Virus record (IMG/VR): IMGVR_UViG_3300035191_000045
Span: 1-42,051 of that record
Source of the DNA: a virus
Strand: one strand, 5' to 3'
Length of the DNA: 42,051 nt
The notes under the pieces were generated by a model, which did not search any database, was not told the origin of the DNA, and was given only the letters and a program-made list of their open reading frames with translations. Position 1 is the first letter of the stretch. The number at the start of each line of letters is the position of its first letter. Below, in pieces: positions 9,015 through 32,905 of this stretch. A program made the position numbers and the translations under genes.

Positions 9015-9391
9015 AAAATGAAGACGTTGCCATTCATACGGCATTGATCGCCTACATGATGGCAGAATGGAAATATTATGTGATCGCTGATATTCCAAAG
9101 GAGAATGACTGGAAGCTAAAATATCCGTCGTTTGATCACACGGGGTTGTTGGCCGATGTGATCAAACGGTTTCGTCCGGCGCTGTATGAGGTCATCTGGC
9201 AGGTGTCATGGGAAAGGGCCATCCCTATTATTCAGCGGTATATTCACCCGGATAATACGGCACAGGTCTTTGTCACGAAATATTGTGATGCCTGTGGAGA
9301 CACAGCGGCGCAGGTGTCGTATCTTACGTTTCGCTGCGCGTCATGTGGAAAGGTGCTTGCGTCTGAAGACAGCGAGGAGGAAAACCGATGA
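9011..9391 (+). CDS. hypothetical protein with C-terminal zinc ribbon, 126 aa
   Basis: The first about 85 residues are helical and aromatic. The end carries a zinc ribbon with two CxxC pairs (CDAC and CASC) about 17 residues apart. It overlaps both neighbours by ATGA junctions, so translation is coupled to the radical SAM gene that follows, and a partnership with that enzyme is plausible. Confidence 0.65.
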   Translation: MKNEDVAIHTALIAYMMAEWKYYVIADIPKENDWKLKYPSFDHTGLLADVIKRFRPALYEVIWQVSWERAIPIIQRYIHPDNTAQVFVTKYCDACGDTAAQVSYLTFRCASCGKVLASEDSEEENR

Positions 9392-10104
9392 ATATTTTAT
9401 ACATTCCCCAGGGCCGTGCTCGTGAGTATGCCGATCTTGCCTGCAATCCCTACAATGGCTGTACGCACGGGTGTGAGTATTGCTATGGCAAGCGCTATAA
9501 ACAAGAGGCGTACTATCAGGATGCCGCGCCAAAGCGTGACGTTATCGCGAAATTACGGAAAGATGTCTCACGCCTAAATGGACACACGCCGGAAATTCTC
9601 TTGAGTTTCCAGGGCGATGTGTACCAACATGCTGAGGTTGAGTTAGGGGTGACACGACAGGCGCTAGAACTCTTCATTGCGCACAACTTGCCGTTTACGA
9701 TTTTGACGAAGGGTGGCAAGCGGGCAGTGCGAGACTTTGACTTGTTGGAACGCTATGACAAGGCGCGATTTGGGACAAGTCTCGTCTTCGACAATGATGA
9801 GAGTGCGGCGGAATGGGAACCGAACGCCGCCAGTATTTCAGAACGGATCGCGGTGCTTCGAGCCGCAAAGATACGCGGCATTCCGACGTGGGTCAGCATG
9901 GAACCAGTGATTTATCCAGGCCAAGCGTTGAACGTAGTCGAAATGTTGCATGATGTGGTCGATCATTGGAAGGTCGGCAAGTTGAACTATCACAAGGCCG
10001 CGCACGGCGTAGACTGGTTGAAATTTCGAGAGGACATCACGGAACAGCTTGAACGCTACGGCGCGAGCTATTACTTGAAACGGAGTTTGACTGAACTGAG
10101 GTGA
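9388..10104 (+). CDS. radical SAM protein (SPL-like family)
   Basis: Residues about 23-37 hold NPYNGCTHGCEYCYG, the CxxxCxxC motif that binds the 4Fe-4S cluster of radical S-adenosylmethionine enzymes. The following segments (ILLSFQGDVYQ, FTILTKGGKR, FGTSLVFDND) fit the SPL-like group that includes spore photoproduct lyases and related uncharacterised phage enzymes. It is shorter than true spore photoproduct lyases, so repair is not implied. With the neighbouring DUF4326 and ASCH genes it may take part in a nucleotide or nucleic-acid modification. The chemistry is unknown. Confidence 0.8.
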   Translation: MNILYIPQGRAREYADLACNPYNGCTHGCEYCYGKRYKQEAYYQDAAPKRDVIAKLRKDVSRLNGHTPEILLSFQGDVYQHAEVELGVTRQALELFIAHNLPFTILTKGGKRAVRDFDLLERYDKARFGTSLVFDNDESAAEWEPNAASISERIAVLRAAKIRGIPTWVSMEPVIYPGQALNVVEMLHDVVDHWKVGKLNYHKAAHGVDWLKFREDITEQLERYGASYYLKRSLTELR

Positions 10105-10111
10105 AAAAGTA

Positions 10112-10471
10112 ATGCCAAAACGCATACAACGAAAACGCACGAAAGGCTGGCGGATGCCTGAAAATGCCGTGTATGTCGGGCGTCCGACGAAATACGGGAA
10201 CCCATACAAGGAAGGCATGCCGCTTCGTGACATCCCGGATATTTATGTTCACCGTTGCGGTATGGCTGATCTGCCAGCCAGCTACAAGATTACGAGAGAG
10301 GATGCGGTTCGGCTGTATGAGGCATTGATGGCGCAACTTTGCCAAAGTCCTGGGTATTTACAGCGGTTACAGCGCGAGCTTGGAGGCAAGGATCTTGTCT
10401 GCTGGTGTTCGCTGGATGGTCCGTGTCATGTGGATGTTCTACTCAAATTCGCGAATGGTGGAACGTCATGA
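10112..10471 (+). CDS. DUF4326 protein
   Basis: The family signature is clear: VYVGRPTKYGNPYKEG near residues 20-36 and LVCWCSLDGPCHVDVLL near residues 95-112. The two cysteines and the histidine suggest metal or substrate binding. DUF4326 proteins are common in phages next to nucleotide-metabolism genes, but the reaction is not established. It overlaps the ASCH gene by four bases. Confidence 0.8.
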   Translation: MPKRIQRKRTKGWRMPENAVYVGRPTKYGNPYKEGMPLRDIPDIYVHRCGMADLPASYKITREDAVRLYEALMAQLCQSPGYLQRLQRELGGKDLVCWCSLDGPCHVDVLLKFANGGTS

Positions 10472-10905
10472 AAACGTTGAGTATTAGACAACCCTGGAGT
10501 TGGCTTATCTTACACCAGGGCAAAAATATTGAAAACCGGACATGGTACACGCCCTATCGCGGCCCGTTGTTTATCCATGCCGGGAAGTTGTGGGATGAGA
10601 ACATCCAAAGTGGGAAAGCTAGTATCGATCCGGAGATGTTCGATCTTGTGATGGAACGTTATGGCATCACGATAGAGATCGTCAAGCAGTGGATACGAGA
10701 GAGCGGCAAGCGGACGTTTGGCGAGGTCTTCTTGACGGGTGGCATTGTCGGCAAGGTCGATCTGGTGGATTGCGTGCAGAACCATCCGAGCATCTGGGCG
10801 ATAAAAGGGCAGTGGCATTGGGTGCTGGAACACCCGGAGCCGTTGCCGTTCATGGCGTGTAAGGGACAACTCGGATTGTTCGAGGTGAAATACTATGGAC
10901 AGTAA
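10468..10905 (+). CDS. ASCH-domain protein
   Basis: It begins MKTLSIRQPWSWLI, followed by ENRTWYTPYRGPLFIHAGK, the typical start of ASCH-fold proteins, which bind RNA or modified nucleosides. GKVDLVDCV and the C-terminal GQLGLFEV strand complete the beta-barrel. The open frame extends upstream, but the ATG in the ATGA overlap at 10468 gives exactly the family start. It belongs to the radical SAM / DUF4326 group. Confidence 0.8.
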   Translation: MKTLSIRQPWSWLILHQGKNIENRTWYTPYRGPLFIHAGKLWDENIQSGKASIDPEMFDLVMERYGITIEIVKQWIRESGKRTFGEVFLTGGIVGKVDLVDCVQNHPSIWAIKGQWHWVLEHPEPLPFMACKGQLGLFEVKYYGQ

Positions 10906-11110
10906 AAAATTGCAAGACTACATCCGTGAATGGCTGAAGCACTATCACGAACCGGCACAGTACAAAACGATTTTGGAACAGGCGGCCACGCCTCGAACCG
11001 GAAAGCAATGGACTGATGCCATTCAGTATTATGTCCGGGGCGTGAGCGCCCACAATCCTCGTAAACGAGAAATACGGGCCGCCTGTCAGGAACTGCTGAA
11101 ACCCGTCTGA
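10895..11110 (+). CDS. hypothetical protein, 71 aa
   Basis: This is a small basic helical protein (LQDYIREWLKHYH to LLKPV), not recognised. It overlaps the ASCH gene by 11 bases and is the last gene before the packaging region. Its helical, charged nature would suit a nucleic-acid or protein binding role. Confidence 0.6.
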   Translation: MDSKKLQDYIREWLKHYHEPAQYKTILEQAATPRTGKQWTDAIQYYVRGVSAHNPRKREIRAACQELLKPV

Positions 11111-11171
11111 CTGCACGCCATTTCTCTGTCCTCCAGAGCTAGGCTGAAACGCAGCCCCCACAAAAAATTCC

Positions 11172-11760: not shown

Positions 11761-13599
11761 ATGCTGAAACGCCGTCAACGCCGCTATCAAGAAAACGCTC
11801 GTCGTGCTGTTCATTTCACCGTAGCGGTCCCTACCGGGAAAGACGTCATCTTCCTCCCTGATCGTCTGGCATGCGAACGCGACATCCCTCTCTTCGGAAA
11901 AACCTACATTCCGGACTATGTGACTGCCGAGTATGCCCCGCATCATTTCTTGATGTTTCAGGCCATGCAAACCCGGACATCAAGGATCGTCTTAGTCCTT
12001 TTGCCGAGAGGGGCAGGCAAAAGCACGATCCTGTTTCTTATCGCCCTCCATGCCGTCTGTTATAGCCTGGAGCCGTATATCGTCCAGATCGAGCATGATG
12101 GCGATCTGGCCGGAACGATTGTCCAGAAATTCGTGAAGGTGTTTGAGGAAAATCAAAAGGTCATTCACGACTTTCCGGACGTGCGCCCATCTACGCCCTG
12201 GTCGCCGTCCAGCGGCGAACTGAATTTTACAAACGGCTGCATCATTCGATTTATGGGGTTGAACCAATTGAAAAGCCGTGGTTCAACCCATCATGAACAC
12301 CGGATCACGCTCGCCATCTGTAATGATCTCGTTGACCTGAAGAACGCCAAAAGCCGGTCAGAGACAAAGTTTATCTATGACATGATCACAAAGGATCTGG
12401 CAAAGGCCGGGCCACTGCCTGGTGAAGGCATTTTACGACGGTGCTATTTAGGGACCTCGATCAGCCAGACGGACGCCGCGTGGCAACTGTCGCAGTCTCC
12501 GATGGTCAAGGTCATTAAGATTCCGGCGATCAATGGACATCCGGATCGGATCAAACAGTTAATGGCCGTGATCTCAGAAGACGCCCGTCACATCAGCGAC
12601 TTTTGCGACCAGATCGAACGAGAGAAAGAGGCGCAACTTGACGCCGAGGAGATTTCCCCGGAGGAGTTGGAAATTACTGACCGGGAGCGCTGGGCATATA
12701 TCCGCGCGAACCGGGAGAAATACGCGCCGTTTTTTGCGATCCCGGACGAAGGCGACGAAGACGGGTTTCTCGGAAGAGATGGCGCGTTACAGAGTTATTG
12801 GCCGGAGGTCTATTCGATGGCGTTTTTTGTGTTTGACGCGGCAGAGGACACTGGGGCCTTCATGCAAGAGCGCCAACATGTCACATCAGACGCGGCCTTT
12901 CAAAAGGTGTTCCGTGAGTGGTTTGTCCCGTATGACGGCACGTTACCACGTGGGCTCTATCGGTTCGGGTTGGCAATTGATACCAGTGGTGAGCCGAAAG
13001 AAGGCACGGATCCGATGGCGATTGTCGCAGGGGCGTTTAACCTGACAACACGGGATTTGTATATTCTGGAGGTCTGGAGCGATCAGGCCACACCGGAAAA
13101 GCTGCTCTCCGTCGCGCATGAGATCTATTGGCGGCAGTTTCGCACCCAGGATCGCACGGCCTCTGTCTTCCTCGAAGCGATTGTGTCGGCGAAAGGGTTA
13201 GGCCGGTCGTTTTTTCAGCAGGGGGCTGAAAATGCGCAACACAGACACCCGTCCCGCGCAGACTTCTGGGATCCATTGCCCGTAAAAGAGGTCCCGCCCG
13301 GAGGGAATAAGGATTTACGCCTGCTCGCCATCCGTCCGGAGCTTGAACAGCAACGCATTCATGTCATGAGCGGGCACTCGCAGCAGGATTTGCTTGTCAC
13401 GCAATGGTGTGGCTGGATACCCGGAACGAATACCCATAAGCTGATGGAGATCGAGTATAAAATTGATACGGCTGACGCCATGACCATGCTGTATACACAA
13501 TTACAGAAGCGCCCGCGCAAGAAACCCGCCCAGAGCCAGGAACCGCGCCGGAATCAACCACCGGCCCGCAGCGCGTATGACCGCTTTCGTCATCGATAA
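11761..13599 (+). CDS. terL: terminase large subunit
   Basis: The ATPase domain shows the Walker A motif LPRGAGKS (residues 81-88) and acidic residues after a hydrophobic strand near ITLAICNDLVD. The nuclease domain begins near LAIDTSGEP, with Asp407 as a likely metal ligand, and has further acidic residues (VFLEAIVSAKG). The length of 612 is normal or slightly long. It pumps DNA into proheads and cuts concatemers. The C-terminal tail is basic and proline-rich, suited to portal docking or DNA contact. Confidence 0.9.
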   Translation: MLKRRQRRYQENARRAVHFTVAVPTGKDVIFLPDRLACERDIPLFGKTYIPDYVTAEYAPHHFLMFQAMQTRTSRIVLVLLPRGAGKSTILFLIALHAVCYSLEPYIVQIEHDGDLAGTIVQKFVKVFEENQKVIHDFPDVRPSTPWSPSSGELNFTNGCIIRFMGLNQLKSRGSTHHEHRITLAICNDLVDLKNAKSRSETKFIYDMITKDLAKAGPLPGEGILRRCYLGTSISQTDAAWQLSQSPMVKVIKIPAINGHPDRIKQLMAVISEDARHISDFCDQIEREKEAQLDAEEISPEELEITDRERWAYIRANREKYAPFFAIPDEGDEDGFLGRDGALQSYWPEVYSMAFFVFDAAEDTGAFMQERQHVTSDAAFQKVFREWFVPYDGTLPRGLYRFGLAIDTSGEPKEGTDPMAIVAGAFNLTTRDLYILEVWSDQATPEKLLSVAHEIYWRQFRTQDRTASVFLEAIVSAKGLGRSFFQQGAENAQHRHPSRADFWDPLPVKEVPPGGNKDLRLLAIRPELEQQRIHVMSGHSQQDLLVTQWCGWIPGTNTHKLMEIEYKIDTADAMTMLYTQLQKRPRKKPAQSQEPRRNQPPARSAYDRFRHR

Positions 13600-13704: not shown

Positions 13705-14724
13705 ATGAATCATATCCTCCTCTTATGCCCAGATGAAAAAGACGCGACTTCATTTTACCGCGGTTGGGGGCCATTTGGCGACCTGGCCCGCGATCCTGAC
13801 ACACAAATCGTTTTACACCGTGCTGAACGGGTGGCCTGGTCCACGATTGCGGATAAGTCGCTTGTGGTGCTGCAGCGCCCGTGTACGTCATCCCATTTTG
13901 AGGTGCTCAAGATCGCCAGAGACTGTCAGGTCCCGGTCTGGTGTGATTGGGATGATCTGCTGTGGGAAATTCCGCCCGGCAATCAGGCCCGCCTCTATTA
14001 CGTCGATCCCACGGCGGTTAAAAACGGCATCCTGAAATGTGCGGATATGGCGGATCGCGTCACCGTGTCAACAGCCGCCTTTCAACACGCCTTCCCGGAA
14101 CGCTATCATGAGAAAATCCAGATCATCCGCAATCGGCTCCCGGTCCGCTGGCGGATCTGTACCGCCCCGCAGCCCCCGGGAGAACGGCTGAAACTTCTCT
14201 GGCGAGGGTCACAAACCCATGCAGCAGATTGGATCGATTCTGCTGACGGCATTCTGGCATTCTCGAAGCAGCACACCGTTGAATGGCATCTTGTCGGCAT
14301 CGCCCCGCAATGGCTGATTGAACGACTCACAGCGCTCTGTCCTGTGTATCAACGGGGGGAAATTCCGATGGAAGCCTATTTTCGATGGCTGATCGCAGAC
14401 GGGCCACGCGCAGACATGATGGTCGTCCCGCTCCGTGACAATGCCTTTAACCGGGCCAAAAGCAATATTGCCCAACTTGAGGCGACGTTTGGCGGCATGC
14501 TGACCGTGGGGCCGAAGTGGCCGGAATGGACAACCGGAATTGAGCAGGCTGATCGGCTGCTGTACGCCTCGCCCCAACAGATTGAATCACGCCTGGCGCG
14601 AGCAGCGGCATTGGCGCGAAATGGGACAGGGCCTGTCGTTGACGAATTGCAGCAGCACTTCTTGAGCGTCGCCGAGGTCTATGACACCCAATTTCGGCGT
14701 CATGTCGTCGGAGGTGGCGTATGA
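13705..14724 (+). CDS. glycosyltransferase, GT-B / GT4-like
   Basis: The fold is suggested by an N-terminal strand (HILLLCPDEKDATSFYRGWG), a conserved VWCDWDDLLWEIP segment (about residues 79-91) and the C-terminal PLRDNAFNRAKSNIAQLEA block, typical of GT4-type enzymes often found in phages. It should transfer a nucleotide-activated sugar to an unknown acceptor, perhaps a virion protein, modified DNA or host glycan. It heads a five-gene sugar cluster inserted between terminase and portal and has its own promoter. The last bases overlap the next gene. Confidence 0.75.
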   Translation: MNHILLLCPDEKDATSFYRGWGPFGDLARDPDTQIVLHRAERVAWSTIADKSLVVLQRPCTSSHFEVLKIARDCQVPVWCDWDDLLWEIPPGNQARLYYVDPTAVKNGILKCADMADRVTVSTAAFQHAFPERYHEKIQIIRNRLPVRWRICTAPQPPGERLKLLWRGSQTHAADWIDSADGILAFSKQHTVEWHLVGIAPQWLIERLTALCPVYQRGEIPMEAYFRWLIADGPRADMMVVPLRDNAFNRAKSNIAQLEATFGGMLTVGPKWPEWTTGIEQADRLLYASPQQIESRLARAAALARNGTGPVVDELQQHFLSVAEVYDTQFRRHVVGGGV

Positions 14725-15455
14725 TTTCGATTATTTTGAATGTCGGCCCGGCCCCCAGGGTCAAGATGCTGCATCGTTGCTTACCACAGACGTTTGCCCG
14801 CGCTGGATGGCAAGATATCGAATTTTTGGTCTGTGACAACGGCACAAATTCGCACGAGGTCGCCGATCTGATTCAGGCCCTCAACCCGGTCTATTTTCGG
14901 CGCAACCGTGAAAATCAGGGCAATTATCAGATGCTCAACCAATTGGTCCTCCGGGCATCCGGTGAGTATATTGCCTATATTGCCGGGGATATTGAATATC
15001 CGACACAATGGCTCAAGAAACTCGTGACAGCGGCAGCCGTGATCCCAGAGACCGGCATGGTAGGGTTCTATTGTGTGGGCAAGGATCACGGCACGCCGGA
15101 AGTCCGCAACGGGATCGCGATCAAGGTCGTGAAAGGGGCGGTGTTTGGCGGTGGTCTTTGGTCCCGATCGCTGCATGATCGGATCGGCTATTTCTATGAA
15201 GGGTATGGCAAGTACGGGCTAGGAGATTCTGATTGGGGCTTACGCATTCGACAGACGGGCCTGCTGAATTATTTTGTGGGGGATGACGTCTCTGTGCACC
15301 ACGGCGACGATGTGGACGCAGACAGCGCCTATCGTCAGATGAAATGGGAGATCCTGCATACGGCCCTGTCGCATTTTTCAGCACGCAAACAGCAGATCCA
15401 GGCCGGGAACGTGTATGTCCCTCCGCCTGAACGAACGGAAGCAGATCTTCAATGA
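14721..15455 (+). CDS. glycosyltransferase family 2 (GT-A)
   Basis: The N-terminal strand ISIILNVG, the segment EFLVCDNGT and the loop YIAYIAGDIEYP with its acidic metal-binding residues are the classic GT2 arrangement. GDSDWGLRIRQTG near residue 170 matches the catalytic acceptor loop (usually ED or DxD-type). The length of 244 gives a single catalytic domain without membrane anchor. ATGA overlaps join it to both neighbours. Confidence 0.8.
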   Translation: MISIILNVGPAPRVKMLHRCLPQTFARAGWQDIEFLVCDNGTNSHEVADLIQALNPVYFRRNRENQGNYQMLNQLVLRASGEYIAYIAGDIEYPTQWLKKLVTAAAVIPETGMVGFYCVGKDHGTPEVRNGIAIKVVKGAVFGGGLWSRSLHDRIGYFYEGYGKYGLGDSDWGLRIRQTGLLNYFVGDDVSVHHGDDVDADSAYRQMKWEILHTALSHFSARKQQIQAGNVYVPPPERTEADLQ

Positions 15456-16204
15456 ATAGAGCGATTGTGGCGGTCCTCGCCATCCATTTTGACACCCCGG
15501 CGCGTGAAGCGATCACGCGCTTGACCTGTGAGCGCCTGTTGTGGCAGACGGTTCCGATCAACGTGGTGGTCGTTGGCGACTCAGACGCAGAGTACCGCAT
15601 GGCGAAAGAAACCGGCTGTCTGTACGTGCAACACAAAAACCTGCCCTTGTCAGAGAAATATCAGGCCGGGATCGACTACGCCCGCAAGTTGAACCCGCTG
15701 GCGATTGTGACAACCGGCTCAGACTCCTGGCTCACGGATGACTACTGCCGAATCGGGTATGACTACATGATGCGCAACCATCTTGATGTGACCGGGAAAA
15801 GCGTGTTTAACGTGCTGAATGTCGAGACCGGAGAGGTGATTGCACGCGGGTATCAGGGCAGCCGTGCCAGTGAGCCGGACGGCAACGGACGCATGATCAC
15901 CGCCGCCGGGATGGACAAATTGAACTGGAAACTCTATCCGGACGGCGGGAACGTCAACGGGATCGATCACGCCTCGCATCAGATATGTCTGAAGGCCGGG
16001 TTGCACGTGGGCCTCATGAATGAAATTGAGAAGGTGAAGGTGTTGGAGTTGAAGTCGTCTCGTTGGCATTCCACAAATTCGTTTCAGACGCTCAGTACAG
16101 CGGCAAGTCTGGCGCACGGGTACGAGATTTCAGACGGGCGGACCTGGATGAATCATTGGTTTCCTGGCGGGCTGGCCGGGTTATACGTCTTGAATCATGG
16201 ATAA
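15452..16204 (+). CDS. GT2-like glycosyltransferase
   Basis: It opens with the strand AIVAVLAIHFDTPAR, then VPINVVVVGDSDAE, and keeps a metal-site-like region at IVTTGSDSWL (about residues 90-99), all consistent with a GT-A nucleotide-sugar fold. The second half is divergent and has no clear family pattern, so the sugar and acceptor cannot be given. It overlaps the genes on both sides and belongs to the same operon. Confidence 0.65.
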   Translation: MNRAIVAVLAIHFDTPAREAITRLTCERLLWQTVPINVVVVGDSDAEYRMAKETGCLYVQHKNLPLSEKYQAGIDYARKLNPLAIVTTGSDSWLTDDYCRIGYDYMMRNHLDVTGKSVFNVLNVETGEVIARGYQGSRASEPDGNGRMITAAGMDKLNWKLYPDGGNVNGIDHASHQICLKAGLHVGLMNEIEKVKVLELKSSRWHSTNSFQTLSTAASLAHGYEISDGRTWMNHWFPGGLAGLYVLNHG

Positions 16205-17147
16205 AATTATCCTCGTTGTCCCCACGATCCGCGAAAACTGTATCACGCGCTTTCTCGACGCCTGGCGTGACGGCTTGCCACAGACGATTGTCGTAGAGGA
16301 CAACCCGGAAAAGACCTTTCGTTTGTCCGGTGTCACGCAGTACGCCTGGAATGACATTGATCGGGATCTCCAAGAATATGCCTGGATTATTCCCCGGCGC
16401 TCTGATTGTATCCGTAGCTATGGGTTTTTGAAAGCGGCGCAAGCTGGGGCGGATATTATTGTTACCCTGGACGATGACTGCTTTCCGACAGACGACACAC
16501 CGCCTGATAAATTTTTTGCCCTGCACGCTGACCGGCTCCTCTCCTCTGGTCACGATCCCGCGTGGCAATCCACAGTTGACGGGATCGACGTGCGGGGCAT
16601 CCCGTATTTTCAGCGAGACCGCGAACACCCGGTCATGGTCAATCTTGGTCTCTGGAAAGGCGTGCTCGATCTTGACGCGCCTACACAACTCACCGATCAA
16701 CGCACTCCTCAATTCACAAGCCTCCGCGAAGGCACGGCTCCGATCGGGACATACTTTCCGGTCTGTGGGATGAATTTGGCGTTTCGCGTGAAGATGCTGC
16801 CGGCCATGTATTTTTTGCTTATGGGGCAGGCATACCCGTTTGACCGATTCGGAGACATCTGGTGTGGACTGTTTGTGAAACGCATTCTTGACCACCTGCG
16901 CTTTTCGATGACCTACGGGCGTCCGTTTGTCCAGCACGCCCGCGCCTCAAACGTCTGGAAGAATCTTGAGAAGGAAACGCCGGGCCTGCCGATCAATGAC
17001 ACGCTCTGGAAGACGCTTGACGATGTTGTCCTGACCGGAAACACCGTCGCCGGGTGCTATCACCACTTGTCGCTTGCCTTGCCTGAAGGTGAGTATTGGG
17101 ACCGACTGCGAGAGGCGATGTGGGTGTGGACGCTGCTTGTGAGGTGA
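16197..17147 (+). CDS. GT75-like reversibly glycosylated polypeptide / UDP-sugar mutase homologue
   Basis: Several blocks match the plant reversibly glycosylated polypeptides (UDP-arabinopyranose mutases) in order: DDDCFP (from residue 92), VNLGLWKGVLDLDAPTQL, SLREG, PVCGMNLAFR, then PAMYFLLMG, RFGDIWCGLFVK, LDHLRF, and ASNVWKNLEKE. In plants the DDD motif binds metal and nucleotide sugar and an arginine is reversibly glycosylated; the family interconverts pyranose and furanose forms of UDP-arabinose. It is somewhat shorter (316) than plant members. In a phage the sugar is unknown. The neighbours are three glycosyltransferases and an epimerase. Confidence 0.8.
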   Translation: MDKIILVVPTIRENCITRFLDAWRDGLPQTIVVEDNPEKTFRLSGVTQYAWNDIDRDLQEYAWIIPRRSDCIRSYGFLKAAQAGADIIVTLDDDCFPTDDTPPDKFFALHADRLLSSGHDPAWQSTVDGIDVRGIPYFQRDREHPVMVNLGLWKGVLDLDAPTQLTDQRTPQFTSLREGTAPIGTYFPVCGMNLAFRVKMLPAMYFLLMGQAYPFDRFGDIWCGLFVKRILDHLRFSMTYGRPFVQHARASNVWKNLEKETPGLPINDTLWKTLDDVVLTGNTVAGCYHHLSLALPEGEYWDRLREAMWVWTLLVR

Positions 17148-17156
17148 GGGTGAACA

Positions 17157-17690
17157 ATGGCGTATCTGATTCACCCCACCGATCTTCCAGACGTCTTGCG
17201 CATTACACCTGACGTCTACACCGACACACGCGGCGCGTTCTGCGTGTCCTATCGCGCGAAAACCTTTCAACAGCAGATTCCTGAGCCCTTCATCCAGGAT
17301 AATTGCGTCTACTCGAAAGCCCGTGTCCTGCGGGGCCTACATTATCAAGAAGCCCCGTATGCCCAGGGCAAGCTTGTGACCGCCGTGCATGGTGAAATCT
17401 TTGACGTGGCCGTCGATCTCAGGCCGGACTCGCCCACCTTCCGGGAGTGGATCGGTGTCACGTTGTCCGATTACGCAGGCACGTTGCTCTATCTTCCGCC
17501 CGGCTTTGCGCATGGCTATTGCGTGCTGAGTCAAGATGCGGTGGTGTTGTATAAGGTGACGGCGGAGTATTGTTTTCCTGCGGAGCGCGGCATTCGCTGG
17601 GATGATCCGGCGCTCAAGATTACGTGGCCGATCGCGACGCCGATCCTGTCTGAGAAAGACGCCTTCTGGCCGTGGTTAGAACCGTTGTAA
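17157..17690 (+). CDS. rfbC: dTDP-4-dehydrorhamnose 3,5-epimerase (RmlC-type)
   Basis: The cupin enzyme pattern is complete: TRGAFCVSY, VLRGLHYQ with the catalytic histidine, GEIFDVAVDLRPDSPTF, LLYLPPGFAHGYCVL, YKVTAEYCFPAERGIRWDD and a C-terminal LSEKD. The length of 177 is normal. It makes dTDP-4-keto-L-rhamnose or a related 6-deoxy sugar. The other rhamnose pathway genes (rmlA, B, D) are absent, so it must use a host-made intermediate. It is the last gene of the sugar cluster. Confidence 0.9.
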   Translation: MAYLIHPTDLPDVLRITPDVYTDTRGAFCVSYRAKTFQQQIPEPFIQDNCVYSKARVLRGLHYQEAPYAQGKLVTAVHGEIFDVAVDLRPDSPTFREWIGVTLSDYAGTLLYLPPGFAHGYCVLSQDAVVLYKVTAEYCFPAERGIRWDDPALKITWPIATPILSEKDAFWPWLEPL

Positions 17691-17729: not shown

Positions 17730-17748
17730 TCCTCACAGAACATCACCG

Positions 17749-17774
17749 GACGCAAACACGGGCGTCTGTTTTTC
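17749..17774 (+). terminator. terminator-like hairpin just before the portal start
   Basis: GACGC (17749-17753) and GCGTC (17762-17766) form a hairpin followed by TGTTTTTCTG. It lies between the promoter and the portal gene, so it may attenuate the late transcript. Confidence 0.45.
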
Positions 17775-17776
17775 TG

Positions 17777-19111
17777 TTGAGCGTTACACTCTATGATCAT
17801 ACCGGGCGCAAGTTCGCGCTTTCGACACCCACCATGCGCATGGTAGGCCGGGTCAGCCGCTACACACCCGGCGGCTACCTGCTCGCGTCCTCTCAAAATC
17901 CGGATGAATTGATCCGGCAGCGCGGGTTGCGTTGGTATAAAAAGATCGCTGCCGATCCGCAAGTCTTCGCCTCCCTCGATCTGCTGTACGCCGCTGTGTC
18001 CTCCTGTTGGAATTCCGCCGCCGGACAAATCCCGTCTGCTGAAGAATGGGAGGATCTACTGGCGAGCATTAGCCATCTGCCACCACAGCTTCAAGCGAAA
18101 GTTCTGGCGCAAACCGTGGAGGTCAGCGCCCCGCAAATCGTGCCGCCCAAAGATCCGACCCCAATGGAACTGAAAGCCACGGAGTTCGCCCGTTATACCC
18201 TTGACGAATTTTTGGGGCGTAATCGCAAGGAAGATAGCGACATCACCGGACGCGATTTTGGACGAGTCGTCGAAGAAACCCTCTCCTGTATTGAAGATGG
18301 CAAGGCGTGTCTGGAACTTGAGTGGCAGAAAATTCCTGACGGTCCCTGGAAAGGGAAATGGGGCATCAATGATTTCCTCTGGCGCTATCCGGAGTTTTTC
18401 ACCTTTGACGACAACAATAAGCTCTGGATGAAAGAATGGCTCGGTTCGCTAGAGGGTACGATCCCCGTGCCGTCCAATAAAGTTGTGCTCGCCTCGTTTC
18501 ACCCGAAATATGAGAACTACCACGGCCAAAGCATTCTGCACAGCCTCTCGTTTGCCACGGACCTGAAATGGAACTCCGAAAGTATGTGCGCGATCTCCGA
18601 GGAACGGTTTGGGATGCCCACAGTGGTTGGCTGGACGGATACGAGACGAGAAGGGATGTCTACTGACGATCTCCTGGTTATGCTCGAAAAGCTCCAGCGC
18701 GGGCAGTCGATGACATTGAACCAGGACGAAAAAGGCCACATTGAAGACGTGCAGTTCATGGAAACGTCCCGGCGAGGAGGCTCCTCGGAATATGACGTCA
18801 CGATCCGGCGCAATAACCGCTACACCTCCAAAGTGCTCTTAGGCTCGGCCCTGGCCCTGGAAGAAGGAGATAACGGGTCGCTGGCACTGGCAGCAGCCAC
18901 GGCGAAACCAAATTTTCGCTGGAAGATCCGGCGCTTAATCAAGCTGGTGAATTGGGTCCACAGCACACAGACCCTGGCCTGGATGACATTTTATAATTTC
19001 CCGGCAGGCACACGCCCGCCACGCTGCCAAATTCGGTTGACCGGGGATATTTCGCAATTTTTATTACAGGCGTCTTCGCCTGACAATCAGGCCGAGACAG
19101 AACACGAGTAA
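17777..19111 (+). CDS. portal protein (DUF935 / Mu gp29-like)
   Basis: The 444-residue protein fits the Mu-like portal family: an N-terminal segment with QNPDELIRQRGLRWYKKIAA, a core with CLELEWQKIPDGPWKGKW, then ERFGMPTVVGWTD and a C-terminal helical part. It forms the dodecameric DNA gateway of the capsid. The start is a TTG four bases after the T-run of a hairpin and without a Shine-Dalgarno site; a later in-frame ATG (codon 17) is possible but would cut the fold. Position before protease and capsid genes is as expected. Confidence 0.8.
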   Translation: MSVTLYDHTGRKFALSTPTMRMVGRVSRYTPGGYLLASSQNPDELIRQRGLRWYKKIAADPQVFASLDLLYAAVSSCWNSAAGQIPSAEEWEDLLASISHLPPQLQAKVLAQTVEVSAPQIVPPKDPTPMELKATEFARYTLDEFLGRNRKEDSDITGRDFGRVVEETLSCIEDGKACLELEWQKIPDGPWKGKWGINDFLWRYPEFFTFDDNNKLWMKEWLGSLEGTIPVPSNKVVLASFHPKYENYHGQSILHSLSFATDLKWNSESMCAISEERFGMPTVVGWTDTRREGMSTDDLLVMLEKLQRGQSMTLNQDEKGHIEDVQFMETSRRGGSSEYDVTIRRNNRYTSKVLLGSALALEEGDNGSLALAAATAKPNFRWKIRRLIKLVNWVHSTQTLAWMTFYNFPAGTRPPRCQIRLTGDISQFLLQASSPDNQAETEHE

Positions 19112-22508: not shown

Positions 22509-22541
22509 GGGGCAGGGCCTTGCGCCTCGCCCCGTTTTTTT
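22509..22541 (+). terminator. intrinsic terminator after the major capsid gene
   Basis: CGGGGC and GCCCCG form a strong stem around an AGGGCCTTGCGCCTC loop, followed by T7. It ends the capsid transcript. Its loop also contains TTGCGC (22520-22525), 17 bases before TATGAT (22543-22548), so a promoter may overlap it. Confidence 0.75.
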
Positions 22542-22543
22542 GT

Positions 22544-25285
22544 ATGATACGACATCCGGCATTCCTTTCCATCAGTCTCTGTGCGTTTATCCTGGCAGGG
22601 ATAGCATTGTTTCTTGTGTGGATGCCCCCGATCCCCCAGGACCTGGCAGATCTGTCTTCACGGGCTGCGCCACAGATCTATCTCGACAATATTCCGGACG
22701 GCCTGATCTCCGAGCCGAAATTGTCTTCTGCGGTCCAGACGAAGCTCAACGCCAGTACCGGCAGCCAATTTCATACCTTAACGGCCCTGTCGTCCATCGA
22801 TAATGCCGACGAACTACATGTCTACAATGTGTCATCCTCGGACTATTACAAGATCACGATGGCAAACCTCGCCTCTGGGATTTCCGGATCAGGGGAAGCC
22901 AATACGATAAGCAGCGCCGGGACAGGAGCATCCCTCGCGTATCAGAAAGACGGCGTAGACCTACAACTGAACGCCATCAAAAGCGAAAATGACCGCCTGT
23001 CTGTGTCGCTGGATTCCGGGACGCATGATGTCGAACTCACCATCAACGAGGCGAATATTGACCATGATGCCCTGACAAATTTCAGCGCGTCAGAACATTT
23101 CACACAGGCGAGTATTACGACCGTCGGCACTGTGGCAAGCGGGGATGTCTCCGCCATTGAAAGCGATCCGGGGGTGACCACCCATGAAAGCACCTATAAT
23201 CACGCCAACTATAACACTGCCTATGGCTGGGGCAATCACGCAATACAAAACTATCTTGATCTAGATACTTATCCAAACACCGATACTAATAGCATAGACG
23301 ACTTAACGACAAATACTTCTTGGGGTGGTGATCTTTCCGGCATCGGAGCATCACCTTCCGTTTCAAATGATAGTCACAATCATACAACGACGACTATTTC
23401 AGGATTAGATATTTCCGATGATACAAATCTCGCCGGAGGAACAAGCCTTACGCTTTCAGATGACACGTTAAATGTTGACGACGATTTTGTGCATAATAGT
23501 GGTGGCGATATAATGGCCCCGACGCTTACCATTTCAGATAGCGCCACAACATCGCCTTTGAATCTTACTGAACGTAGTACAACCCCTAGTTTACCATCTA
23601 TAGGTGACGTTTATTTGGATGATGGCACAAATTGTGTCGGTGATGGTCCATGCTTACGACGATACACAGGAGCCGGATGGGAAGATGTGGATAATGTCGG
23701 CGGGGTCGGAAGTGGTGAAGCAAATACGGCCAGCAATCAGGGGACCGGAACATCATTATATTATACCAAAAGTGGAGTAGACCTTCAGTTCAATGCTATC
23801 AAAAGTGAAAATGATCGGCTATCTATCTCTTTAGATAGTGGCACACATGATGTAGAATTAACGATTAATGAAGCAAATATTGATCATGATGCTCTAACAA
23901 ACTTTAGTGCGTCAGAACATTTTACGCAAGCGAGTATTACAACGGTTGGAACTGTTACCAGTGGTGATATTTCGGCTATTGAATCTGATCCAGGCGTTAC
24001 GACTCATGAAAGTACATATAATCACACCAACTATAACACTGCTTATGGATGGGGAAACCATGCCTTACAAAATTACCTAGACTTAGATACATATCCGAAC
24101 GCCGACATGGACAGTACCGACGATGTAACTGTTTCGACAGATTTGTCTGATACTGCCAATCTCTTGTATGAATCAGAACTTGATAGCGAAAATGAACTAG
24201 AAACGCAAATCGGAGTCGGAGTGTTTACAACCAGTGATGGGGCACTCTCAGATGACGATGTAAGTTTGGTAGATGTCCAGACGGCTCTCAGTAACGACTT
24301 TCACAACGCAGGCGGTACAGATGATGATATACCAGAGTCGGGTGACTTTGGTGCGGCAACAAATTTAGACAATAATGGGAGCCTCAGTATTTCTAATGAA
24401 ACACAAGGCGATGTGTTGTATTTTAATGGTTCAAATTGGATTCGATTAGCCAAAGGAACAGCCGGACAAGTGCTAGAAATGAATGCGACGGCTACAGCTC
24501 CCGAATGGGATACCGATGATGGAGCCGGTTCTGCAAGTATTGAAAATGATGTTTATAGTTCTGGCTGGAACGGTGATACGACAAACGGCGCATCTCAAAA
24601 TGCGATTTATGATTATCTCCATCAACTTGACACTGACGATGATGGCGATGTAGATTCTGTAGATTCATCTGTTAGTGGTGGTGCCTCTTTCTGGACGGCT
24701 GAAAGTACATTTGCCCGATCAGATGATGATACCATTACCATCACTGTAGATGATTGCACAAACTATCAAGCAGGCACGCCGATCAGATATTCGGCTGATG
24801 AATCTACCTGGTATTATGGTGTTACTGTAGCCTGCTCAGATATTGGCGCTACCATTAATGTGGATCTTGATGGAGTAGCGTTTAGTACCAGTTATGATGA
24901 TTACTTACAATATGGCGATAGTTCAAGAATGCGTGCCAAAAATATTGTCATGCCTGGTAATTGTACTGTAGCTGATCCATTCTCACTCGTGCTCTATCAT
25001 CAAGAAAATACCGCCTACCTTGTTCGGGCCACAGGTATCGCACAAGATACGGCTCCGGCTGGCAGTGCCTTGGAATTCAATGTAGAAGTCGAGGACACTG
25101 ATGCCTTCAGTTCAGAAATTTCAATTAGCGCCGGGTCATCTTCTCAGTTTGATAGCGGTGTGACCGTCAACACGAGTAACTATGATGTGGAATTTGGCGA
25201 AACCATCCATGTCTCAACAAGTCAATGTGGAAGTTCAACGCCAGGGCAAACTCTGTCGGTGACACTCTCATTTATTTACCCATAA
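22544..25285 (+). CDS. fibre-like virion protein with N-terminal membrane segment and internal duplication
   Basis: The protein (914 residues from the ATG at 22544) starts with a hydrophobic segment (LSISLCAFILAGIALFLVWM), then is Ser, Thr, Asn, Asp and Gly rich, as in beta-structured fibres. A 129-residue unit occurs twice (nt 22892-23278 and 23714-24100), with YNHANYNTAYGWGNH-type motifs seen in many phage fibres. The DNA changes from GC-rich to AT-rich near 23.25 kb. The N-terminal hydrophobic segment is unusual for a fibre. It has no Shine-Dalgarno site at the ATG, which follows a terminator T-run. Confidence 0.6.
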   Translation: MIRHPAFLSISLCAFILAGIALFLVWMPPIPQDLADLSSRAAPQIYLDNIPDGLISEPKLSSAVQTKLNASTGSQFHTLTALSSIDNADELHVYNVSSSDYYKITMANLASGISGSGEANTISSAGTGASLAYQKDGVDLQLNAIKSENDRLSVSLDSGTHDVELTINEANIDHDALTNFSASEHFTQASITTVGTVASGDVSAIESDPGVTTHESTYNHANYNTAYGWGNHAIQNYLDLDTYPNTDTNSIDDLTTNTSWGGDLSGIGASPSVSNDSHNHTTTTISGLDISDDTNLAGGTSLTLSDDTLNVDDDFVHNSGGDIMAPTLTISDSATTSPLNLTERSTTPSLPSIGDVYLDDGTNCVGDGPCLRRYTGAGWEDVDNVGGVGSGEANTASNQGTGTSLYYTKSGVDLQFNAIKSENDRLSISLDSGTHDVELTINEANIDHDALTNFSASEHFTQASITTVGTVTSGDISAIESDPGVTTHESTYNHTNYNTAYGWGNHALQNYLDLDTYPNADMDSTDDVTVSTDLSDTANLLYESELDSENELETQIGVGVFTTSDGALSDDDVSLVDVQTALSNDFHNAGGTDDDIPESGDFGAATNLDNNGSLSISNETQGDVLYFNGSNWIRLAKGTAGQVLEMNATATAPEWDTDDGAGSASIENDVYSSGWNGDTTNGASQNAIYDYLHQLDTDDDGDVDSVDSSVSGGASFWTAESTFARSDDDTITITVDDCTNYQAGTPIRYSADESTWYYGVTVACSDIGATINVDLDGVAFSTSYDDYLQYGDSSRMRAKNIVMPGNCTVADPFSLVLYHQENTAYLVRATGIAQDTAPAGSALEFNVEVEDTDAFSSEISISAGSSSQFDSGVTVNTSNYDVEFGETIHVSTSQCGSSTPGQTLSVTLSFIYP
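22892..23278 (+). repeat. fibre repeat unit, copy A (GC-rich)
   Basis: Codons encode GEANTISSAG to DLDTYPN. The protein is near-identical to copy B, but most third positions differ; this copy prefers G and C. Confidence 0.85.
23714..24100 (+). repeat. fibre repeat unit, copy B (AT-rich)
   Basis: This unit has the same length (387 bases) and nearly the same protein as copy A, with many synonymous changes towards A and T. It lies in the AT-rich part of the gene. Confidence 0.85.
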
Positions 25286-25300
25286 AAAAGGAAGTTACCT

Positions 25301-25876
25301 ATGAAAAAATTACTGCTTAGTTTGTTGATTTTCAGTCTTTTACCATTTTTCACAATGGCCGAACCAGGTGACGAACTCTCGGGATTGCATAAGACCATTT
25401 GGCTCATTACGGCCCATAGCAGCCCAGATATTCTTGCTACATTGCTCACGAATATGAACAGCTTAGATGATAGTTATCAAGCATCAAATTCACAGCAAGA
25501 ATGGGCTATTTGGCTCAAGCTTTATGTCGCGGTTGAATTCGGGAAAATCTATTATCAGCAAGTCTATACTGATATTTTATCAAAAATTATTGAATACAAT
25601 TTTGGAAATGCCCAAGTTGCACCTGAATATCTCCCGCCACAAGGCTGTAGTAAGGTTAGTTCAACTATTACATGCGATGAAGATCCAACAGGTGAAGAAC
25701 GAACAATTCTTCTGTGGCAACGGCTTAGCGGCACATTTACCGAACAATCTGTCACTGGCATTCTTGATAGTGGAACCTGGACATTTTCAAGTATTCCAAT
25801 AGGAAGTAATTATGTTGTCGCCTATGATGATAATTTTCAATCGCTCCCAAGCCATTATTTTACTGTAAGTGAATAA
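25301..25876 (+). CDS. secreted hypothetical protein, 191 aa
   Basis: A signal peptide is clear: Lys-Lys, then LLLSLLIFSLLPFF and a cleavage site after TMA. The mature part is helical first, and its end (about residues 120-191) looks like a beta-sandwich with two cysteines (GCSKVSSTITCDED). AAAGGAAG precedes the ATG. It shares the AT-rich composition of the fibre's second half and may be a fibre partner or a surface/lysis factor. Not recognised. Confidence 0.65.
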   Translation: MKKLLLSLLIFSLLPFFTMAEPGDELSGLHKTIWLITAHSSPDILATLLTNMNSLDDSYQASNSQQEWAIWLKLYVAVEFGKIYYQQVYTDILSKIIEYNFGNAQVAPEYLPPQGCSKVSSTITCDEDPTGEERTILLWQRLSGTFTEQSVTGILDSGTWTFSSIPIGSNYVVAYDDNFQSLPSHYFTVSE

Positions 25877-25877
25877 T

Positions 25878-26603
25878 ATGCGAACAATCTTTCTCATTCT
25901 TTTTCTTCTTCATTGTATTTTTCACTGCTATGCCGGAGGCTATGGTGATTTATCTGCCGATTTCTCTACAATTGGCTTATGGCGATTTGAAGAATCTGGA
26001 AGTACCATTGACGATGAATCGACAACGGCTAATGATGCCACATTGTATAATACGTCTTCAACAACAGCATTTTTTGGGAACGGCAAAGTTTATGATGGAA
26101 CATCAGCGTATGGAGAAGCCCCATATAATAGTGCCTATTATGATGTGTTAGCAGTAGAAGTCGTCTGCCAAGCCGATTGGGAAACAAGCCCTCCGGATAA
26201 TAGCGCCTATCTTGTAGGCGTGTATAATGCTTGGCGGCTGAAATTTGAAACATCAGCCGATGGCGATGTTTGCTTTACGATACATCTTACAGGGGGAGAA
26301 CGAAAAGTCTGCACGACCACTGCGATGAATGATTATGAAGGCGAATGGGTCTATATTGCCGCAGGGTTTGCGCGTCCGTATCTTGGTATCTATCTGAATG
26401 GCAACCTTGATAATTGGGCCTATTATGACGAGGCTATAAGTTTTACAGGAACGACTGTCCTGAAAATCGGAGGGTTTGATCAATATACCTTTCGGTTTCA
26501 CGGGATTCTTGATACCATTCGGCTTTCTACGGCGACTCGATCAGCCGTAGAAATCAGGCAAACCTATCAATACATGAAAGGGGGATACGGTCTTATCAAC
26601 TAA
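25878..26603 (+). CDS. secreted LamG / concanavalin-like lectin protein
   Basis: After a signal peptide (IFLILFLLHCIFHCYAGG) the protein follows the laminin-G / concanavalin-A-like pattern: TIGLWRFEESGSTIDDES, then NDATLYNTSS, GEWVYIAAGFARPYLGIYLNG, and FHGILDTIRLSTATRSAVEI near the end. Such domains bind sugars. It probably recognises host or environmental glycans as part of the adsorption apparatus. The ATG at 25878 directly follows the stop of the preceding gene. AT-rich like its neighbour. Confidence 0.75.
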   Translation: MRTIFLILFLLHCIFHCYAGGYGDLSADFSTIGLWRFEESGSTIDDESTTANDATLYNTSSTTAFFGNGKVYDGTSAYGEAPYNSAYYDVLAVEVVCQADWETSPPDNSAYLVGVYNAWRLKFETSADGDVCFTIHLTGGERKVCTTTAMNDYEGEWVYIAAGFARPYLGIYLNGNLDNWAYYDEAISFTGTTVLKIGGFDQYTFRFHGILDTIRLSTATRSAVEIRQTYQYMKGGYGLIN

Positions 26604-31998: not shown

Positions 31999-32706
31999 TC
32001 AATTTCCACAAATGGACTCGCACGGAATGCCGTCTTTATCCCTATCTAGACTGCTATTCCCGCAGGTGTTTAGATGATAATAGGCTTCTTCACAGGACGT
32101 CATCTTGCCACACGTCTTTTTCGGCGTACAGGAGAATGCTGACGTGTTCTGTTTCGGCGTGGCTGTTGGTGTTGGCGTGGCGTCCTGTTTCTCCGGTTTC
32201 AATTCCCCGGCACAGGTGTCAGGATGCCACAGGCCGCGCTGGGCTTCTTTCGCGTCTTTTTGAGCCTCCTGAAATTCCTTTTGATAAAGATACGGCGTCT
32301 CATAGGTGTATTCGAAGGCGTACCCGTCTGCTATCATCATGTGGTTAACAAGCTCATTCCCGCCAATCCACACGTACCGGAGCATCCGATCATATTTGTC
32401 CCGGTTCTGCTGTGTCTTATCAGATTTCAGCTTGACCTTTTTTCCTTCGAGCAGCTTCTTTGCATGTTCAAATGCCTCTTTCCCGAAGCACTCCACCGGT
32501 TTGCGTGGGTCTTTCGTCTCTGGCGTATTAATCCCGATCAGCCGGATCGTCTCTACCGTGTTCCGGATCTTGACCTTAATCGTGTCGCCGTCCACAACCA
32601 TAACCACGGTCCCGCTCTCGCTGAATACGCGAGGCGGTTCGATGACCGCCGTTGACACGGAGACGGCGAACAAAATAAACAGACTCACAAAAAATAGACG
32701 GTTCAT
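31999..32706 (-). CDS. secreted thermonuclease with Excalibur calcium-binding domain
   Basis: A signal peptide (MNRLFFVSLFILFAVSVSTA) precedes a staphylococcal nuclease domain: VVDGDTIKV, then IRLIGINTPET with the catalytic Arg and acidic residues, YDRMLRYVW, and the final GLW. A Thr/Pro linker leads to a C-terminal Excalibur domain with DxDxDGxxC (DRDKDGIPCE). It should degrade DNA or RNA outside the cell and bind calcium. The ATG at 32706 follows GAGGAG; an earlier frame start is less likely. It lies just after the RHH gene. Confidence 0.85.
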   Translation of the reverse strand: MNRLFFVSLFILFAVSVSTAVIEPPRVFSESGTVVMVVDGDTIKVKIRNTVETIRLIGINTPETKDPRKPVECFGKEAFEHAKKLLEGKKVKLKSDKTQQNRDKYDRMLRYVWIGGNELVNHMMIADGYAFEYTYETPYLYQKEFQEAQKDAKEAQRGLWHPDTCAGELKPEKQDATPTPTATPKQNTSAFSCTPKKTCGKMTSCEEAYYHLNTCGNSSLDRDKDGIPCESICGN

Positions 32707-32710
32707 AGGG

Positions 32711-32905
32711 TTACTCCTCAACATCCTTTGCTAATTTTTGAAGGCGCAAGGTTTTTTCTTCCTCAGCCTGTCGCAACTCATAAAGATATGTTGCGATGTG
32801 GCTATTCATAGATACGCCCCGTTGAGCACAATAAGCTTTAAACCATCGGTGTAGTTCAGGTTTTAGTTGTATAATAAGCTGTCTCGAGTCTTCACGTCTT
32901 GCCAT
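32711..32905 (-). CDS. ribbon-helix-helix (Arc/CopG-like) regulator
   Basis: The pattern RQLIIQLKPELHRWFKAYCA, then RGVSMNSHIATYLYELRQAE is the beta-strand, helix, helix of RHH repressors with a short helical tail. It is 64 residues long. It is read divergently from the gene at 33107 across an AT-rich region with inverted repeats, which is the likely operator. The nuclease gene follows 4 bases after its stop, so both are probably repressed together. Confidence 0.75.
   Translation of the reverse strand: MARREDSRQLIIQLKPELHRWFKAYCAQRGVSMNSHIATYLYELRQAEEEKTLRLQKLAKDVEE

Follow-up and report, generated by a model that had tools for sequence, protein, structure and literature searches.

As of 2023, MtdL and Hyg20 were the only characterized bacterial enzymes of family GT75 (PMC9937993). 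MtdL of Marinactinospora thermotolerans is an NDP-pyranose mutase of known structure (PDB 7xpr, 7yua, and others) that handles GDP-L-sugars (GDP-L-galactose/L-fucose) in the synthesis of the antibiotic A201A, and the title of entry 7yua names an arginine-mediated step for this enzyme. The same Pfam family and fold contain the plant UDP-arabinopyranose mutases (UAMs), or reversibly glycosylated polypeptides (RGPs), among them OsUAM1, AtRGP1-3, and OsUAM2, whose structure (8cid) has been solved. The FAD-dependent UDP-galactopyranose mutase (Glf) carries out the kind of reaction that is predicted for the RGP described below, a pyranose-furanose conversion of an NDP-sugar, but its fold is unlike that of RGPs and its cofactor is FAD; with Escherichia coli Glf as query, no match was found beside the RGP genes examined. 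In phages, RGP/GT75 is already known by automatic naming: a 247-residue fragment from an uncultured Caudovirales phage (BFVD/UniProt A0A6J5N5Z7) bears the RGP name, and a soil-virome phage GT75 (Xu et al. 2024) is cited under the same family name in a 2025 paper (PMC12016548), in a sentence that itself gives no residue, structure, or operon analysis. Our literature search found no dedicated functional or comparative study of a phage RGP.

The RGP gene analyzed here lies in an IMG/VR virus record, IMGVR_UViG_3300035191_000045, which was examined in its entirety (42,051 bp; here, the window) and is probably a genome fragment. It occupies positions 16197..17147 on the + strand and encodes, from an ATG start and in an intact frame, a protein of 316 amino acids (here, the window RGP). 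The original prediction had assigned this protein to GT75 from the ordered blocks DDDCFP, VNLGLWKG, LDAPTQL, SLREG, CGMNLAF, and ASN, all of which are present, and the assignment is borne out: the protein is an RGP/GT75 family member. In hmmscan against Pfam, PF03214 (RGP) is the sole family found (E = 6.5e-34; score, 118.1 bits; family cut-off, 23.8), and the match covers residues 2-293 of the protein and positions 4-310 of the 342 in the profile. All 52 aligned relatives match PF03214 as well. At E <= 1e-3, the only PDB sequences matched are those of MtdL (1.7e-26) and one UDP-arabinopyranose mutase, 8cid (5.4e-18). A better match to another glycosyltransferase family was sought and none was found; the protein has no match in NCBIfam or PHROGs v4, and the Pfam GT2 model matches neither the window RGP nor its relatives, save 1 of 52 at 8e-4. 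PF03214 exceeds its cut-off in just 1 of 14 control genomes and at the default threshold matches Haloferax volcanii only, so the match in the window is not commonplace.

We consider it probable (roughly 0.7) that the gene encodes an active, metal-dependent GT75 pyranose-furanose mutase that feeds an NDP-furanose to the glycosyltransferases encoded beside it, for use on a virion or host glycan. The predicted structure agrees with the family assignment. An AlphaFold2 model built from the 52 aligned relatives (mean pLDDT, 96.1; pTM, 0.93) comprises a GT-A N-terminal part, a GT75-specific core, and C-terminal helices. In a Foldseek search of the PDB, six MtdL entries take top ranks (best E = 3.9e-22; TM, 0.79; 29% identity), and rice UAM2 (8cid) is among the top matches (E = 1.2e-20; TM, 0.80). 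MtdL and OsUAM2 are the only strong fold matches (TM, 0.77-0.80), whereas other GT-A proteins reach about 0.40, beginning with a human GalNAc transferase (E = 5.4e-6; TM, 0.40).

For the catalytic residues, functional positions of MtdL known from structures and mutants (PMC9937993) were transferred by pairwise alignment, and invariance was scored over 72 nonredundant long relatives, both phage and cellular. The window RGP keeps the DXD motif, predicted to bind Mn2+ and the nucleotide (D92-D93-D94, 16470..16478; MtdL D109-D111); the conserved, autoglycosylated arginine (R133, 16593..16595; MtdL R159 and OsUAM1 R158); D158 (16668..16670), the equivalent of MtdL D195, which MtdL requires for mutase activity; R217-F218-G219-D220 (16845..16856; MtdL R257-F-G-D260), predicted to bind the beta-phosphate and the sugar; and H247 (16935..16937; MtdL H287), a predicted metal ligand, all codons being on the + strand. 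By alignment, R249 further corresponds to MtdL R289, S69-D70 to S86-D87, and R73 to R90. The loss of nucleotide-sugar-binding residues, which would have spoken against the family reading, was thus looked for, and both these and the metal-binding residues are in place. Residues D92, D94, R133, D158, M192, N193, R217, D220, and H247 are invariant across the 72 relatives; for M192/N193 and R217/D220 this is in part a product of selection, because both profile scans searched with patterns that contained CGMN, EDNP, and RFDDIW blocks, whereas D92/D94, R133, D158, and H247 lie outside these patterns and their invariance was not selected for. MtdL mutants at positions matching the kept residues lost activity, and R159K abolished it (PMC9937993).

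The correspondence with MtdL is not complete, since T13, S228, and Q229 of MtdL are Pro9, Gly191, and Met192 in the window RGP. MtdL Q229A is inactive (PMC9937993), yet methionine stands at this position in the window RGP and in 72 of 72 relatives, and therefore the MtdL data cannot be transferred one-to-one. Active plant RGPs share with the window RGP the catalytic Arg and the Gly at the MtdL S228 position (Gly216 in AtRGP2; PMC9937993), and the inactive AtRGP5 and OsUAM2 both lack residues that the window RGP has kept. The glutamine is probably specific to MtdL and does not define the family. Active plant RGPs also read CGMN.

By analogy with MtdL, a divalent metal (Mn2+/Mg2+) on the DXD motif and H247 would position the diphosphate, R133 would act as the nucleophile at the anomeric carbon, and from the covalent Arg-sugar intermediate so formed the sugar would close again into a furanose ring. 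The foremost alternative is that this GT75-fold protein is a glycosyltransferase or a self-glycosylating primer (the RGP activity) with a protein or lipid acceptor, and not a mutase. Its fold is indeed that of a GT-A glycosyltransferase with a DXD motif, glycosyltransferase PHROG models weakly match 2 of its 52 relatives, plant RGPs self-glycosylate, and AtRGP2 shows transferase activity alone with UDP-glucose (PMC9937993). However, the pocket residues on which MtdL mutase activity depends (D195, D260, and D87) are kept in the window RGP, and neither an acceptor domain nor an added region was seen in it, which makes the transferase explanation unlikely.

In the sugar pocket, D70 (16404..16406, + strand; MtdL D87) is an MtdL-type residue that is coupled to position 219, occupied here by G219 (16851-16853, + strand; MtdL G259). 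Among the 72 relatives, 26 combine Asp70 with a residue other than Asp at 219 and 46 show the reverse, while the number with Asp at both positions, or at neither, is zero. On well-supported branches, the two traits switch jointly in all three independent comparisons (four changes), which are too few for a formal test. The D70/G219 pair of the window RGP is the same pocket type as D87/G259 of MtdL; active plant enzymes have Ser instead of Asp70 (Ser91 in AtRGP2), and the exchanges D87S in MtdL and S91D in AtRGP2 are both inactivating (PMC9937993). A phage relative of the other pocket type was modeled with about equal confidence (pLDDT, 95.3; pTM, 0.93). From these patterns we infer that one needed carboxylate at the sugar could be supplied from either position, marking two subtypes, and the strict exchange may separate two GT75 substrate classes; it offers a testable rule for telling such classes apart across GT75.

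The pocket is mixed, since Pro9 (MtdL T13) follows the plant pattern whereas Ser69-Asp70 follow the pattern of GDP-type MtdL. With residues 69-70 and 219 of the bacterial type and residue 9 of the plant type, the pattern points to no one base or sugar, and UDP-arabinopyranose as such is not supported. Nor is the label "plant-type", as the MtdL-type pocket at 69-70/219 is accompanied by closest kin that are bacterial; plant RGPs are not close to the window RGP by sequence.

The gene context is that of a phage. The window RGP belongs to a five-gene cassette on the + strand that is flanked by the terminase large subunit gene (11761..13599; phrog_38, E = 6.9e-47) and a Mu-type portal protein gene (17777..19111; PF06074, E = 4.1e-32), both also on the + strand, with a head protease and the major head protein encoded nearby, which matches the setting first described, a sugar operon in a phage late region. 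Its genes are, in order, a glycosyltransferase gene (13705..14724; PHROG 7162, E = 1.8e-23), a GT2-family glycosyltransferase gene (14721..15455; PF00535, E = 2.1e-11), an orphan open reading frame (ORF) of 250 codons (15452..16204), the RGP gene, and rmlC (17157..17690), encoding dTDP-4-dehydrorhamnose 3,5-epimerase (TIGR01221, 205 bits against an equivalog cut-off of 155.75; PF00908, E = 7.7e-62). Overlaps of 4 bp between the first two genes, 4 bp between the GT2 gene and the orphan, and 8 bp between the orphan and the RGP gene, followed by a 9-bp gap to rmlC, suggest that translation of these genes is coupled. Between rmlC and the portal gene lies a terminator-like hairpin with TTTTT directly behind it (17747..17768, + strand), although the consensus scan that located it found five such sites against 4.4 expected and is not significant as a set. 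Of the three neighboring glycosyltransferases envisaged initially, two stand, and the third is the orphan, for which searches of Pfam, NCBIfam, and PDB sequences, and of the proteins of other phages and viral contigs, returned nothing; its best PHROGs match, to a tail fiber, is insignificant (0.067). The rmlC gene, on the other hand, had been overlooked. RmlA, RmlB, and RmlD were not found with E. coli queries in the window or in a 105-kb contig that extends it and carries the same RGP gene at 100% identity, so either the host would supply the sugar or RmlC serves another transferase. Beyond the window, this contig is, as judged by eye, phage- or phage-plasmid-like, with tape-measure-like and tail-like ORFs, a DnaB-like helicase, and a ParB-like protein.

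A furanose donor for the neighboring glycosyltransferases, as originally suggested, is plausible. The RGP would be coexpressed with the two phage glycosyltransferases and RmlC from the terminase-portal cassette, and the NDP-furanose donor would pass through the cassette transferases to virion proteins or a host surface glycan. This choice of acceptor is a guess; for other phages, Maravista among them, phage glycosyltransferases have been proposed as putative modifiers of the capsid (PMC11256854). Neither confirmed cassette transferase belongs to a known furanosyltransferase family. The neighboring RmlC points weakly to dTDP-linked 6-deoxyhexoses and not to pentoses, and perhaps, given RmlC and the MtdL-type pocket, the donor sugar is a 6-deoxyhexose. 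To our knowledge, a dTDP-linked 6-deoxyhexose is the donor for no GT75 enzyme.

Arabinosylated phage DNA exists (PMC6024577), and the cassette could instead modify phage DNA by placing a furanose on a modified base, in the manner of the arabinosylation of hydroxymethylcytosine in RB69. In one other phage record (G004), the RGP gene (locus L031) does lie among genes for a thymidylate-synthase homolog and dCMP-deaminase-like and nucleotide-kinase-like proteins, with two ORFs downstream and a gene for a DNA-polymerase-like protein also around it. However, genes of the thymidylate synthase/dCMP hydroxymethylase family were found neither in the 105-kb contig nor in seven of eight phage records, that of L031 being the exception; the cassette is part of the head module and does not lie among replication genes; and a mutase goes unmentioned in the paper on RB69 (PMC6024577). 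DNA modification is accordingly quite an improbable role, and the supply of a furanose donor for a virion or host glycan remains the reading that we prefer.

Related phage RGP genes have comparable neighbors. Of the 154 genes that lie no more than 2.5 kb from a phage RGP, 24 are recognized sugar genes, versus 5 of 213 farther away (Fisher P = 3.5e-6, which is indicative only, as the window's own neighbors were among the queries and related loci were counted as independent), and such genes are next to the RGP in 12 of 26 loci. In six loci (L022, L027, L033, L034, L035, and L037), jackhmmer identified the PHROG 7162 glycosyltransferase and a GT2 protein together with the RGP, mostly followed by an RmlB-like dehydratase. 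An HK97 capsid gene is present in L022, L027, L033, L035, and L037, as it is in 9 of 28 viral records with an RGP, in several within a few kilobases. The terminase, portal, protease, and capsid proteins of the window had no phmmer match in the six loci; a cassette shared without shared head proteins appears to move between different phages. Six short-chain dehydrogenase/reductase (SDR) neighbors were tested, for which the best model was in each case TIGR01181 (dTDP-glucose 4,6-dehydratase); all six score below its cut-off, and the name was not adopted for them.

Profile scans identified 76 RGP loci in IMG/VR and 46 in species genomes. In contrast, 1 of 50,697 INPHARED records contains a relative, a 595-kb uncultured phage (37.5%), which suggests a phage trait that has been missed by cultured collections. 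The nine matches in PLSDB comprise one Planctomyces plasmid and eight haloarchaeal entries. Viral matches occur in a long form (about 310-350 amino acids) and a short form (about 255-300 amino acids) that lacks the last part of the profile, and the phages carrying them include a T4-like contig, giant-genome contigs, and HK97-capsid phages. In one phage RGP (L005; ORF 9965-11161), the stretch VISHGMWTGYPDLDS is duplicated in tandem.

On the tree, the nearest row to the window RGP is from Planctomycetota (56% identity), followed by Chloroflexota and Acidobacteriota, and the smallest supported group that includes it holds 19 cellular and 2 viral rows. Virus and cell states require eight changes, of which at least four are forced by supported branches, and therefore phages and bacteria have exchanged the gene repeatedly. 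Horizontal transfer from plants was rejected as the likely source, the closest relatives being bacterial; OsUAM2, which alone represents plants in the tree, has a long branch and an unsure placement. Among the 60 pooled neighbors of bacterial relatives, GT2 and polysaccharide families prevail, and none of the 25 families listed for them is a phage family (single loci may differ), a result against regarding the bacterial relatives as hidden prophages. Related phage RGP copies are under purifying selection: for pairs with measurable dS, the dN/dS ratios (0.226/0.999, 0.253/0.907, 0.277/1.115, and 0.130/0.383) were judged to be well below 1. It is thus very unlikely that the RGP is cargo lately acquired from a bacterial glycan locus, with an absent or decaying role in the phage, for although phage and bacterial rows are interspersed in the tree, with those forced changes, and the nearest kin sit in bacterial MAG contigs, the frame is intact with all catalytic residues kept, even the nearest bacterial relative is only 56% identical, dN/dS is below 1 among related phage copies, and the set of PHROG 7162 glycosyltransferase, GT2, and RGP recurs in contigs without detectable head proteins in common with the window phage.

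If the window RGP is active as a mutase, phages would be shown to synthesize furanose donors, which matters for the glycosylation of virions, the masking of receptors, and lysogenic conversion, and compact mutases would be gained. A broader proposal is that many uncultured phages make furanosyl donors via a metal-dependent GT75 mutase and use them to coat their heads or their host with furanose sugars, that the substrate is here a dTDP-6-deoxyhexose, that partner families such as DUF3431 or PHROG 7162 are the furanosyltransferases, and that Asp70 and Asp219 mark two substrate classes. RmlC beside the window RGP and RmlB-like dehydratases beside its relatives speak for the dTDP-6-deoxyhexose, but as a whole the proposal is tentative and its correctness doubtful.

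DUF3431 (PF11913) proteins, a candidate partner transferase, recur close to RGP genes (L007:9255-9989; L025, L029, L036, L039, L045, and L063) on the Planctomyces plasmid and in several viral contigs. An Anaerolineae contig (L102:2763-3614) encodes a PF23452 (HPAT) homolog (1.5e-24) 0.7 kb upstream of its RGP. PF23452 contains the plant hydroxyproline O-arabinosyltransferases, for which UDP-arabinofuranose is the donor, and we count this neighbor in favor of the mutase reading. Phages with a short RGP of about 290 amino acids (L048, L053, L057, L074, and similar ones) share a gene block composed of an RmlB-like dehydratase, the RGP, a further glycosyltransferase-like ORF, and an FkbM-like methyltransferase, with a cytidylyltransferase-like gene in some; in several, a terminase-like gene comes after it.

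The 105-kb contig carries TnpA-like and TnpB-like ORFs, by eye of the IS200/IS605 type (L011:10768-12341). In the window, genes for a radical SAM protein (DUF5131-like), a DUF4326 protein, and an ASCH-like protein lie just upstream of the terminase region (9388-10905), and a staphylococcal-nuclease homolog with an Excalibur domain and a signal-like start is encoded on the - strand (31999-32724). Between the genes for the major head protein and a Gp36-like protein (22520-26603), three ORFs have hydrophobic, signal-like N termini; the first (921 amino acids) contains internal repeats and the third a Laminin_G_3 domain (1.6e-07), and their products could be secreted or could serve as glycan acceptors.
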